A stretch of DNA of 13,074 nt from Tannerella sp. (GTDB lineage: Bacteria > Bacteroidota > Bacteroidia > Bacteroidales > Tannerellaceae). A program made the translations under genes and the position numbers. Where the stretch lies: positions 1 to 13,074 of the forward strand of contig JAISTJ010000179.1 of NCBI GenBank assembly GCA_031272655.1, given 5' to 3'. The first letter of the stretch is position 1, and the number at the start of each line of letters is the position of its first letter. The notes beneath the pieces were generated by a model. That model was not told the origin of the DNA and did no database searches. It saw nothing but the letters and a program-made list of their open reading frames with translations. Below, one piece after another: positions 225 to 12,075 of the stretch.

Positions 225-2198
225 ATGGATAAAAACACTATTATAGGTTTTGTGCTTATCGGCTTAGTATTAGTCGTTTTCAGCTGGCTTAGCCGTCCTT
301 CGGCAGAGCAATTAGAGGCGCGTCGTCGTTATCAGGATTCTATTGCAGCCGTGCAACGCGAAGAGATGCGTAAAATAGTTGAGGCTGAACAGCAACGTAA
401 AGAAGCAGAGTTCAAACAAGCGGAAGAAACGGATGCTGCACAGTCTGATTCTTTGCGGCAATCTGCACTTGTTGCTAACTATGGCGTCTTTGCATCGGCG
501 GCTGAAGGTACGGAGGAATTTATCACCCTCGAAAATGACAAAATAGAGGTTGTAATAAGTACAAAGGGCGGTCAAGTATGTCATGTACGCGTTAAAGACT
601 ATGTTACCTATGGCAATGAGCCGTTGCTTCTTTTCGACAAAGGCGATGCCAAGTTCAACCTTACGCTTATTACAGCTACCAACAGGGTTGTGAATACGGA
701 AGATTTGTACTTTGAAGCCACCCCCGTCCCCTCCTTAGGGGGGGAGACTGGAACATCCCCCTTAGGGGGCTTGGGGGCTACTTCCCTCCGCCTTCCTGTC
801 GGCGAAAACGGCTTCATAGACTTTGTTTACACCCTCAAGCCGGACGATTATATCCTCCGCTTTGAGATACGTACCGGCGGACTTAACGGCGTCCTCGCGC
901 CATCTACTAATGCGCTTGATATTCAATGGGAACAGAAACTGCTTTCTCAGGAAAAAGGTCGCAAACTCGAAAACCAATATACAGGGCTGTATTACAAGTT
1001 TGCTGCCGACGAAGTAGAACATTTCGGCGAGGCTAAAGACGAGGATAAAGCGCTCTCCAACCGCTTGAAATGGATTGGTTACAAAAACAAATTCTTTGCT
1101 TCGGTGCTTATTGCCGACGATGCTTTCTCTGCCACAAACCTTTCCGCAAAGCAAATAGCAGGCAGCGGACGGGCGCTTAAAATGTTCAGTACCACTACAT
1201 CCGTGCCGTTTAGCCTGACGCAAAAAGAAACAACAGGTTTCAACTGGTTTTTCGGACCAACAAAATACAAACTGCTCAAATCGTATGATAAAGGCGTTGA
1301 AGAAGATAAACGCTTGGAATTAGACGAGTTAGTGCCTATGGGTTATCGTTGGGCGCGACCTATAAGCAAGTATTTCATTCTTCCTATCTTCGATTTTCTC
1401 GGCAAGTACATCTCAAACTATGGCATAATCATCTTCCTGCTCACTCTGGCGGTGAAGATAGTACTCTCTCCACTAACTTACAAAGGCTACATCTCGACAG
1501 CTAAGATGCGAGTGTTGAAGCCGCAAGTTGAGGCTTTAAAACTCAAATTCCCCAAGAAAGAGCAGGCAATGGAGCTTCAACAGGCTACTATGGCGCTCTA
1601 CAGCAGCGTCGGCGCAAGCCCCATGAGCGGCTGCCTACCGATGATGCTGCCGATGATCATACTGATACCGCTCTATTGGCTCTTCCCCACTGCAATCGAA
1701 CTGCGACAGCAGAGTTTCCTGTGGGCTGAAGACCTCTCAACCTACGACGACGTCATCCGCTGGAGCGCCAACATCCCGCTCATATCTTCGTTCTTAGGCA
1801 ACCACCTTAGTCTCTTCTGTTTGCTGATGACAGTTGTAAATATCGTTTATACTAAGGTGAATATGAGCATGAACAATACCGGGCAACAACAGATGCCGGG
1901 AATGAATATGATGATGTACCTGATGCCCATCATGTTCCTGTTTATTTTCAATCAGAGTTCTTCGGGTTTAAGTTATTACTATTTAGTATTCACGCTGTTA
2001 AGCATATTGCAGACTTGGATTTTCCGCTTCACTATCAACGAAGACAAGCTACTTGCCCAGCTTGAAGAGCATAAGAAGAAACCTAAGAAGAAGTCAGGTT
2101 TCATGCAGCGTCTCGAAGAAGCCCAACGCCAGCAGCGCGAACAACTCCGCAAACAACAGGCCGAACGCGACCGCAAAATGCGTAGCGGCAAACGATAA
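225..2198 (+). CDS. yidC: Membrane protein insertase YidC (Oxa1 family)
   Basis: YidC inserts proteins into the inner membrane, alone or with SecYEG. The 657-residue product has the Gram-negative layout. An N-terminal membrane anchor spans about residues 5-22. A large periplasmic P1 domain follows (about 90-350). The conserved Oxa1/60KD_IMP core begins near residue 380 and holds several membrane segments. The core includes the cytoplasmic segment KGYISTAKMRVLKP, with the basic groove residues expected of the family, and SPMSGCLPMMLPM. The C-terminal tail is very basic and probably coiled (about 610-657, rich in K, R and Q), which fits ribosome contact. The start at 225 is set by the promoter just upstream. 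One oddity lies in the P1 domain: residues 165-185 are encoded by a G/C-run palindromic element that looks inserted (see 716-779). The frame stays open, so the protein is probably functional. The identification is very secure. Confidence 0.97.
   Translation: MDKNTIIGFVLIGLVLVVFSWLSRPSAEQLEARRRYQDSIAAVQREEMRKIVEAEQQRKEAEFKQAEETDAAQSDSLRQSALVANYGVFASAAEGTEEFITLENDKIEVVISTKGGQVCHVRVKDYVTYGNEPLLLFDKGDAKFNLTLITATNRVVNTEDLYFEATPVPSLGGETGTSPLGGLGATSLRLPVGENGFIDFVYTLKPDDYILRFEIRTGGLNGVLAPSTNALDIQWEQKLLSQEKGRKLENQYTGLYYKFAADEVEHFGEAKDEDKALSNRLKWIGYKNKFFASVLIADDAFSATNLSAKQIAGSGRALKMFSTTTSVPFSLTQKETTGFNWFFGPTKYKLLKSYDKGVEEDKRLELDELVPMGYRWARPISKYFILPIFDFLGKYISNYGIIIFLLTLAVKIVLSPLTYKGYISTAKMRVLKPQVEALKLKFPKKEQAMELQQATMALYSSVGASPMSGCLPMMLPMIILIPLYWLFPTAIELRQQSFLWAEDLSTYDDVIRWSANIPLISSFLGNHLSLFCLLMTVVNIVYTKVNMSMNNTGQQQMPGMNMMMYLMPIMFLFIFNQSSSGLSYYYLVFTLLSILQTWIFRFTINEDKLLAQLEEHKKKPKKKSGFMQRLEEAQRQQREQLRKQQAERDRKMRSGKR
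716..779 (+). repeat. Palindromic GC-rich element inserted in frame in yidC
   Basis: This stretch is quite unlike the rest of yidC. It holds two hairpins with the same TTA loop: CCCCTCC/GGGGGGG (728-734 and 738-744, one G-T pair) and CCCCC/GGGGG (757-761 and 765-769). An outer stem of about 7 pairs (716-723 with 773-779, one bulged base) encloses both. It encodes residues about 165-185, a Pro/Gly/Ser/Leu-rich segment (PVPSLGGETG, then SPLGGLG) in the periplasmic P1 domain. From memory, Bacteroidales YidC proteins have only a short turn here between the LYF and SLRLP segments. A 63-base insertion would keep the frame. No second copy is present in this window. Confidence 0.65.
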
Positions 2199-9124: not shown

Positions 9125-9146
9125 TCAAAAATTTTTCGTACCTTTG
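9114..9146 (+). promoter_or_regulatory. Bacteroidota-type promoter of the CapA-NlpC gene
   Basis: TACCTTTG (9139-9146) is a perfect -7 box, with TTG (9114-9116) 22 bases upstream inside the last codons of the RelA/SpoT gene. The 13-base core at 9137-9149 is identical to that of the yidC promoter. It suggests that the downstream secreted cassette is transcribed on its own, with a leader of about 25 bases. Confidence 0.6.
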
Positions 9147-9175
9147 CGGCGTTTTATGTCATTGAATAACAAGAG

Positions 9176-10840: not shown

Positions 10841-11986
10841 ATGAACAAACGAAAATTTATTGCTGCAGCGGCTATGCTTGGAGCAGGAGGATTGGTATGT
10901 GCGAGAGAGAAAATGAGTTATGAAGCCGGAGCTACAACCGGTTCGGTCTTCAATGTAAAGGATTTTGGCGCTAAGGGCGACGGTAAAACGTCTGATACAG
11001 AGGCAATTCAGAAGGCGCTGGATGCTGCGGGCGCTGTTAGTGGCACGGTTTATTTCCCGTCTGGAGTATATCTGTGCCATGACCTTAAGGCGAGCGCGCA
11101 TACGACGTTACTTGCCGAGCCACAGTGGGCATATCGCGGCGACGGCGGCGCTATTCTGTCGCTTGATTCGGAGGCTGCGTCGTGTGTGTTGGATATAACG
11201 GGAGCTTTCGGCGTACATATTCGCGGTCTGTTCTTCAGGGGAATACGTAACGCCTCAAAAACCATTCACGGCATTTTCCTGAACAACGACAAGGAGTATA
11301 GCAAGCAGGAAGATACTATTGTGATTGACGACTGCAAGGTGCAGAGTTTTTCAGGTCACGGTCTGATGCTGCTTCGTTGCTGGCTTTTCATCATCCGGCA
11401 CAGTTATTTTGCATCGAATAAGGGCTGCGGCGTACAGCTTACCGGCTGGGACGGGTTCGTTACCGACAATCAGTTTTCCGGCAACGGCTCGCACGGGTTT
11501 GGCACCGAGACGTCCGGAAGCACGGTTATGTTCACCGCCAACCGCGTGGAATGGAACGGCGGGTACGGGTTGTACCTGTCGGGCGGCGACGCATGGAACG
11601 TAACGGGTAACTGCTTTGACCGCAACTCGGGCGCCGGTCTGTGTGCATGGCGTATAGCCGATTCTGCTGTTACGGGCAATGTGTTTCGTCGTTGCGGGGC
11701 TAACAGCAAGCATTTGGCGGAAGGCGAAAACTCATGTGCGGTACGAATAGAGAACTGTAAAGGCCTGACTTTCACCGGCAATTCATGTCAGACAGGCAAG
11801 AACGACGGTGGCGGCGGGGAACTTACGCCGAAAATGGGCATAAGGGTGAAAGGCAACGAATATACAATAATCTCTGCCAATGCTATGTATCAAGGTTTTA
11901 CGGAAAAGGCTTTTGACGACCTTGGGGAACATGGTAAGGATTTTTTGATAGTGAACAATGTCGCGTCGGCTGTTCCTCTTGCTTAA
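10841..11986 (+). CDS. Exported right-handed beta-helix protein (pectate-lyase-like)
   Basis: The 381-residue protein has an N-terminal export signal (MNKRKFIAAAAMLGAGG). It resembles a Tat signal but has KR rather than RR. The segment FNVKDFGAKGDGKTSDTEAIQKALDA (about 37-62) is the hallmark start of pectate-lyase-like (Pectate_lyase_3) beta-helices, followed by GTVYFPSGVYL. The rest is a run of parallel beta-helix coils with repeated N/G turns (IIRHSYFASNKGCG, VTDNQFSGNGSHG, FTANRVEWNGGYG, VTGNCFDRNSGAG, VTGNVFRRCGANS). Catalytic residues and substrate cannot be read from the sequence; lyase, hydrolase, epimerase or a purely binding role are all possible. It has 12 cysteines, many for an exported protein. 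Its middle is GC-rich (60% over 11521-11580, against 42% in a sampled RelA/SpoT segment). It lies 24 bases after the CapA-NlpC gene, and its stop codon lies inside a duplicated piece of merR. Confidence 0.87.
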   Translation: MNKRKFIAAAAMLGAGGLVCAREKMSYEAGATTGSVFNVKDFGAKGDGKTSDTEAIQKALDAAGAVSGTVYFPSGVYLCHDLKASAHTTLLAEPQWAYRGDGGAILSLDSEAASCVLDITGAFGVHIRGLFFRGIRNASKTIHGIFLNNDKEYSKQEDTIVIDDCKVQSFSGHGLMLLRCWLFIIRHSYFASNKGCGVQLTGWDGFVTDNQFSGNGSHGFGTETSGSTVMFTANRVEWNGGYGLYLSGGDAWNVTGNCFDRNSGAGLCAWRIADSAVTGNVFRRCGANSKHLAEGENSCAVRIENCKGLTFTGNSCQTGKNDGGGGELTPKMGIRVKGNEYTIISANAMYQGFTEKAFDDLGEHGKDFLIVNNVASAVPLA

Positions 11987-12075
11987 ACAGTAACCGCCGC
12001 GTCCATAGCGTAACGAGCTGCAATATTCTATTGCTTTTAAAGCCAAACTTAAACAGTAACCGCCGCATCCATAGC
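11982..12075 (+). repeat. Direct repeat duplicating the 3' end of merR
   Basis: Bases 11982-12009 and 12048-12075 are identical over 28 positions except one (G at 12001, A at 12067). They are 66 bases apart. The right copy encodes the last residues of MerR (AMDAAVTV and stop, minus strand). The left copy still encodes AMDAAVTV and stop in the same sense but is cut off from any gene by a TAG at 12030-12028. On the plus strand the left copy supplies the TAA stop (11984-11986) of the beta-helix gene. Confidence 0.85.

Follow-up and report, generated by a model that had tools for sequence, protein, structure and literature searches.

The stretch of DNA analyzed here (13,074 nucleotides from Tannerella sp., hereafter the window) carries the gene yidC on its plus strand (225..2198), encoding a protein of 657 aa with the Pfam domains PF14849 (YidC_periplas, residues 100-384) and PF02096 (residues 399-600). 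Within this gene lies a palindromic element (714..784, plus strand) formed by two inverted units. The first unit comprises a left outer C-run (CCCCC, 721..725), in a layout that recurs in related units, and hairpin A, CCCCTCC-TTA-GGGGGGG (728..744), which was also recovered by pattern search and has a TTA loop and one T.G pair. A spacer of 12 nt (745..756) separates it from the second unit, which comprises hairpin B, CCCCC-TTA-GGGGG (757..769), an exact CCCCCTTAGGGGG with the same loop, and the right outer G-run (GGGGG, 773..777); on the minus strand, this unit reads GCCCCC-AAG-CCCCC-TAA-GGGGG. The core (721-777) shows two GC hairpins enclosed by an outer C5/G5 stem, and a weak outer pairing of GAAG (714-717) with CTTC (781-784), seen in the RNA fold, extends it. 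The reading frame is open across the whole ORF (225-2198), element included, and the element encodes the peptide TPVPSLGGETGTSPLGGLGA, corresponding to YidC residues of about 166-186. Two TTA-loop hairpins within an outer stem, in frame in yidC, had been described in an earlier reading of the letters by a model (the sequence-only reading), and both the sequence and the open ORF bear this description out; we consider the palindromic element in yidC confirmed.

Searching the window for CCCCCTTAGGGGG with up to 3 mismatches returned 7 matches against a shuffle mean of 1.55, a count reached in 1 of 200 shuffles; six of the seven fall within the element and are partly overlapping readings of the same hairpins. 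Folding was less distinctive. The RNA fold energy (z = -1.36) was equaled in 18 of 200 shuffles and the DNA fold energy (z = -0.90) in 34 of 200, and fold energy was rejected as evidence for the element, being unexceptional for the composition. The modeled RNA returned the weak outer pairing of the proposed structure, but its minimum-energy form pairs the two units with each other instead of forming two separate hairpins. Shuffled sequence folds about as well, so the case for the element lies in its recurring layout.

To place the element among homologous proteins, 79 YidC sequences from the best 120 of 7888 relatives found were aligned. In 76 of the 79, a short turn such as TPVKGASPNSVTMRL replaces the element stretch, as the sequence-only reading had stated for other Bacteroidales, and a segment of equal length without palindromes throughout the order was not found. 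The nearest relative (P0002, 87% identical) has a Pro/Gly segment that is longer than that of the window, with the edges APPAPPKGGE...TSPLGGLGA, and P0003 carries a longer, unrelated-looking segment in the same region. Those near relatives that have a name are MAGs under the labels Tannerella sp. and Tannerella forsythia, and we take these MAGs to be from termite guts. At the DNA level, the window gene has a net 12 to 14 extra codons compared with 11 relatives, and 11 to 13 residues of their turn seem to have given way to the insertion, which would then not be a clean addition. Empty and occupied sites in yidC and valS, compared by eye, revealed no clear target-site duplication. In the predicted YidC structure (mean pLDDT 73), residues 170-182 fall below 50 and lie between strands 164-166 and 185-192, in line with the flexible surface loop that had been expected; YidC would presumably tolerate such a Pro/Gly loop. 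Of the mobile insertion that had also been suggested, the lineage-specific, in-frame insertion is supported, and the mobility by comparison only.

Recurrence in the host genome had been set beforehand as the test of a repeat against a unique sequence, and a second full doublet is indeed present in the source genome (G000) at C210:131-207; one of its units supplies the final codons and the stop codon of a trpG/pabA-type gene. A weaker single unit lies on contig C131 of the same genome. Exact CCCCCTTAGGGGG has 3 matches in G000 and none in the 60 other relatives searched, and TCCCCCTTAGGGGGC is present in 2 of 395 phylum genomes (G000 and one other), so that the exact hairpin was dropped as a family marker for being too narrow (1 of 61 and 2 of 395 genomes, respectively). 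We therefore used a generalized unit, GCCCCC-N1-8-CCCCC-N2-6-GGGGG, with the layout C-run, short spacer, and GC hairpin. It was found in 47 of 393 sampled genomes of the order, with up to 74 matches in one genome; run-length variants make some of the raw matches overlap, here and in the 61-genome search. The reversed control pattern was found in 12 of 393, with 1 to 4 matches each (counted by eye). A looser form occurs in 23 of the 61 relatives and the control in 9, with up to 14 matches; as the control pattern also matches there, single matches among these relatives mean little, and some looser-form matches are plain C-runs, as in G032. By the looser form, the genomes richest in units within the genus are G013, G014, G027, G020, and G019. 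Neighboring units within 200 bp share the orientation seen in the window in 41 of 54 pairs (counted before overlapping loci were removed), and 33 distinct doublets were left once duplicates had been removed.

Among congeners, relatives of the element were located both in frame and between genes, the two kinds of site that the earlier reading had considered. Of the nine places listed for G020, eight were examined. Six of these are in frame and well within a long ORF; of the other two, one is a doublet outside any open frame and one is close to the end of an ORF. By Pfam, the G020 host genes encode an FtsX-type protein, an AraC-type regulator, three HATPase kinases, and an aconitase. Hosts in G013 are a HlyD-type protein and a 1096-codon ORF without Pfam match, and four further units of this genome (L324-L326) are not well inside an ORF. 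True in-frame doublets in G020 and G013 amount to three, of 61, 58, and 67 bp (L330, L332, and L328). Peptides encoded by units in congener genes resemble APSNSPKGG...SPPLEGLGEA. None of the five places examined in G014 is convincingly intragenic. Regarding other observations on these genomes, G014 and G027 have 32 and 30 raw unit matches, many with TTCAAAG or TTCGAAG loops, and the G014 ones examined (L337-L341) look intergenic; the three G020 kinases (L331, L333, and L335) have related segments in their HATPase domains, at similar positions, reflecting either independent hits or gene duplication.

A Pfam scan of unit-containing ORFs revealed units bordering an in-frame DUF559 domain (PF04480), which applies to the IleRS of G632, the ValRS of G734, and the HsdM of G525; units bordering DUF559 were located at L147, L124, L219, L257, and L258. 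PF04480 was found in 160 of the 393 order genomes, and 30 loci, the best ones at one per genome among these 160, were tested for flanking repeats. In 10 of the 30, the domain is in frame in a known host family, comprising LeuRS (three loci), IleRS (two), ValRS, HsdM, an N6/N4 methylase, a type ISP enzyme, and an epimerase/polysaccharide protein. Flanking inverted repeats with a score of at least 27, a threshold chosen after first scores had been seen, were present at 17 of the 30 loci vs. 3 of 143 shifted controls and 2 of 60 shuffles; the other 13 loci had none above the threshold. Such repeats are not peculiar to DUF559, since loci of Y1 transposases, with their own palindromes, also pass in 9 of 17 cases. 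Several DUF559 loci share the sister consensus CACCTCACCCC-nnn-CCCCTCTCC-loop-GGAGAGGGG. At the level of genomes, DUF559 occurs in 31 of 47 unit-positive vs. 129 of 346 other genomes (Fisher p = 1.8e-4, ancestry ignored). Four of the 18 genomes with at least 4 raw unit matches are without a DUF559 match (G046, G459 with 40 raw matches, G540, and G589), and another mobilizer may therefore exist for these units. For G459 (L200-L206) and G046 (L136 and L225), both unit-rich, we note that a different enzyme may move the units. DUF559 was not found in G000, a genome that is 72.5% complete.

The best 120 of 728 DUF559 matches in the protein database include hosts of the IleRS, LeuRS, ValRS, MetRS, MetH-type, RecG, MiaB-type, PrmC-type, and SpoIID-type, names which rest partly on Pfam accessions and partly on the sources' own naming. 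Among the matches listed, P0121-P0352 show DUF559 alongside housekeeping domains (Mur ligase, RecG, MetH-type, MetRS, and others). The domain matches the solved endonuclease-like structure 3hrl (6e-20) and, weakly, the chain 3r3p, termed 'Mobile intron protein' (0.0022), which we assume to be I-Bth0305I. Splicing elements were not recovered: intein (Hint) families are absent from the Pfam matches of 12 in-frame DUF559 hosts (L343 included), intein families are absent from the NCBIfam matches of L147, L124, and L258, and no Rfam family, group I and group II intron RNAs included, matched at gathering score in 10 sources, six of which are DUF559 loci (L147, L124, L257, L258, L219, and L256). The frames are open through the insert. 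Passages of a previous report assign a DUF559 gene to the EDxHD homing family (PMC9403480).

Within the genus, 9 of 36 congeners gave PF04480 matches and 27 gave none; 7 of the 11 matches lie in frames of at least 500 residues. The end of the DUF559 element in G013 valS, GAAGTAG-C7-AAG-C7-AAA-G7-ATGTT, is nearly identical to the 3' unit of the window read on the minus strand, GAAGTAG-C5-AAG-C5-TAA-G5-ATGTT, and its encoded right edge, QTSPPLGGLGGATS, resembles GTSPLGGLGATS of the window. As a few units of other genomes equal or slightly beat this match by the same alignment score, the likeness suggests kinship with the family, especially in the flanks, rather than proof of descent from G013. 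A short doublet is nested inside the G013 DUF559 element. What looks like a single site in a LeuRS-type gene is occupied in G018, G020, G019, and G024, as well as in G038 from another genus (host read from flanking motifs), and the G013 LeuRS also carries DUF559. For ValRS, the site motif was readable in 22 of 30 loci, the other 8 being unmatched by the expression and uncounted. The 22 readable loci comprise 2 with the domain (G006 and G013), 1 with a lone unit (G055), 1 with a longer segment (G003), and 18 that are short. Over query residues 366-851, the occupied valS of G006 and the empty valS of G033 share 95% identity; over residues 4-208, they share 91%. The G055 valS has the left unit only and no nuclease, and 30 letters of it, ATAGCCCCCCCGACCCCCCAAGGGGGGAGT, are the same as the left end of the full element at the same site in G734, a genome of the same genus. 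Furthermore, the DUF559 fused to a MurC-type protein (P0242), which is an unrelated host, is 82% identical to that of G013 over 79% of the stretch searched. Support for mobility of the element comes only from such comparisons of sequence.

Taken as a whole, we regard the yidC stretch as probably a short, coding-compatible mobile element, namely the small nuclease-free form of a DUF559 element, be it a mini-element moved in trans or a remnant after loss of the core. The element consists of a head-to-head pair of terminal units, in each of which a short spacer separates the outer C-run from a GC hairpin. What would be its full-length form has the same kind of inverted ends around DUF559 and sits in frame in housekeeping proteins without detected splicing machinery; the hairpin ends there are translated as Pro/Gly-rich linkers. 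The DUF559 nuclease may drive the movement by cutting the target, after which the element would be copied in by repair, as with homing endonucleases. Since both ends and the nuclease share one frame, the host protein would survive with an extra domain or linker. The mini form in yidC would either owe its movement to a DUF559 enzyme supplied in trans or be what persisted once the nuclease core was lost.

A wider proposal, to which we give even chances, is that these elements constitute a Bacteroidales class of mobile elements that code for protein: a homing-type DUF559 nuclease flanked by inverted hairpin ends would insert in frame into loops of housekeeping proteins, be translated unspliced as an extra domain, and spread together with nuclease-free mini forms that add Pro/Gly linkers of about 20 residues to many proteins, YidC included. 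Inverted units that border DUF559 or stand as a nuclease-free doublet would characterize the class, and the window doublet has this form. Among open-licence papers, we recognized none on an association of DUF559 with in-frame palindromic units. If the proposal is true, the puzzle of in-frame palindromes, i.e., small repeats inside essential genes, gains a candidate enzyme, together with testable sites in close relatives, some occupied, some empty, and some with a scar. It would further describe a selfish nuclease that lives inside a host protein without protein or RNA splicing, point to an ongoing supply of new linker peptides and inserted domains, and account for the odd annotation 'isoleucyl-tRNA synthetase/very-short-patch-repair endonuclease' on two of the listed fusions.

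A possible but rather unlikely alternative is that yidC once held a full in-frame DUF559 element and that its two ends are what a deletion of the nuclease core spared, with no arrival as a mini form. In its favor, the G055 valS has only the left unit at a site filled by the full element in G734, a genome of the same genus, and the insert of P0002, longer than that of the window, has edges resembling those of the G013 valS-DUF559 element. Yet neither the best 120 of 7888 YidC relatives nor the DUF559 protein matches listed (best 120 each) include a DUF559 element in YidC, and arrival as a short unit is favored by several doublets of comparable length (58-67 bp) that G020 and G013 carry in other genes.

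It is improbable that the element is of the REPIN type and mobilized by a RAYT (Y1_Tnp) transposase, even though the inverted doublet layout is shared, Y1_Tnp was found in 17 of 18 repeat-bearing genomes searched, G000 has a truncated Y1_Tnp gene, and GTAG, like the GTAG tag of REP sequences, stands just before the C-run in the 3' unit of the window and in the valS units of G013 and G006. The palindrome neighboring the G000 Y1_Tnp gene, GCATCCCTGTCGGGATGC, is different; a C-run/hairpin unit accompanies only 1 of 18 Y1_Tnp loci in repeat-bearing genomes, at a distance of about 1 kb; flank-to-flank alignment of 11 Y1 loci revealed repeats of other sequences; and in the wider set, GTAG is found at the ends of 2 and CGTC at the ends of 3 of 122 units. 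RAYT was rejected as the mobilizer because RAYT loci carry their own, different palindromes. The truncated gene itself (L100 704-1092, G000:C53) encodes an IS200/Y1-type transposase of 108 aa beside GCATCCCTGTCGGGATGC, with an NCBIfam score below the cut-off.

Local slippage or low-complexity expansion of the Pro/Gly loop, with palindromes arising by chance, is very improbable: the C and G homopolymer runs and the unexceptional fold energy speak for it, but the second genomic copy already disfavors it, and the two-unit layout recurs at unrelated sites, in unrelated genes, and with DUF559 ends. Least credible of all is a true Rickettsia-type palindromic element (RPE), for which palindromes in frame inside genes of known function speak, and against which stand the different phylum, the own sequence layout, and the DUF559 association that set the element apart by description.

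The resemblance to RPEs had been raised by the sequence-only reading, and it stands in form, but membership is not supported: the Bacteroidales layout and the DUF559 borders, unforeseen there, are distinct. Like RPEs and Wolbachia palindromic elements, which are described as small palindromic repeats in frame in genes of known function, encoding a tolerated peptide (PMC3733652, in the passages on these repeats), the present units are palindromic repeats in frame in protein genes (yidC and the doublets at L330, L332, and L328). Compared by description, they differ in phylum and sequence, and their ends coincide with DUF559 borders. REP, BIME, and REPIN sequences likewise have two palindromic units in inverted orientation, as do the neighboring pairs counted here, and passages of earlier work report that their copy number varies between species and that copies lie within genes (PMC3733652 and PMC6006769). 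In contrast to these, the present units have no general GTAG or CGTC tag, although GTAG precedes some units in the genus, no adjoining RAYT was found at them, and the associated enzyme is DUF559 and not a Y1 transposase.

With EDxHD (Vsr-like) homing endonucleases such as I-Bth0305I, the element shares the match of DUF559 to the 'Mobile intron protein' chain. Known members, as far as passages of one source describe them, reside in introns or free-standing genes (PMC3943268), whereas the nuclease here is translated within its host protein, neither an intron nor an intein having been detected. By analogy, the nearest idea for a read-through endonuclease insertion is the ShiLan domain, which is described as an in-frame insertion in a phage methylase that is read through, with no splicing found and an endonuclease inside (PMC11855218). 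That endonuclease, however, is of the HNH type and in a different frame, the host is a phage, and palindromic ends go unmentioned in the abstract of that report. MITEs, which the source cited above on RPEs presents as short inverted-repeat elements and non-autonomous relatives of a larger element (PMC3733652), are similar in this relation, but the presumed autonomous partner here encodes a DUF559 nuclease rather than an ordinary transposase, and no target duplication is shown.

Outside the element, the window contains further repeats. The stretch between yidC and the next gene (2240-2431) holds low-complexity tandem repeats (GAATTAA and AAACTTAT). A 28-nt direct repeat, CTTAAACAGTAACCGCCGC(G/A)TCCATAGC, is present at 11982-12075 in two copies that are 66 bp apart and 96% identical. 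Finally, TCGTACCTTTGCGG is common to positions 184-207 and 9126-9149, upstream of two genes, and it resembles what we take to be the Bacteroidetes promoter -7 motif.
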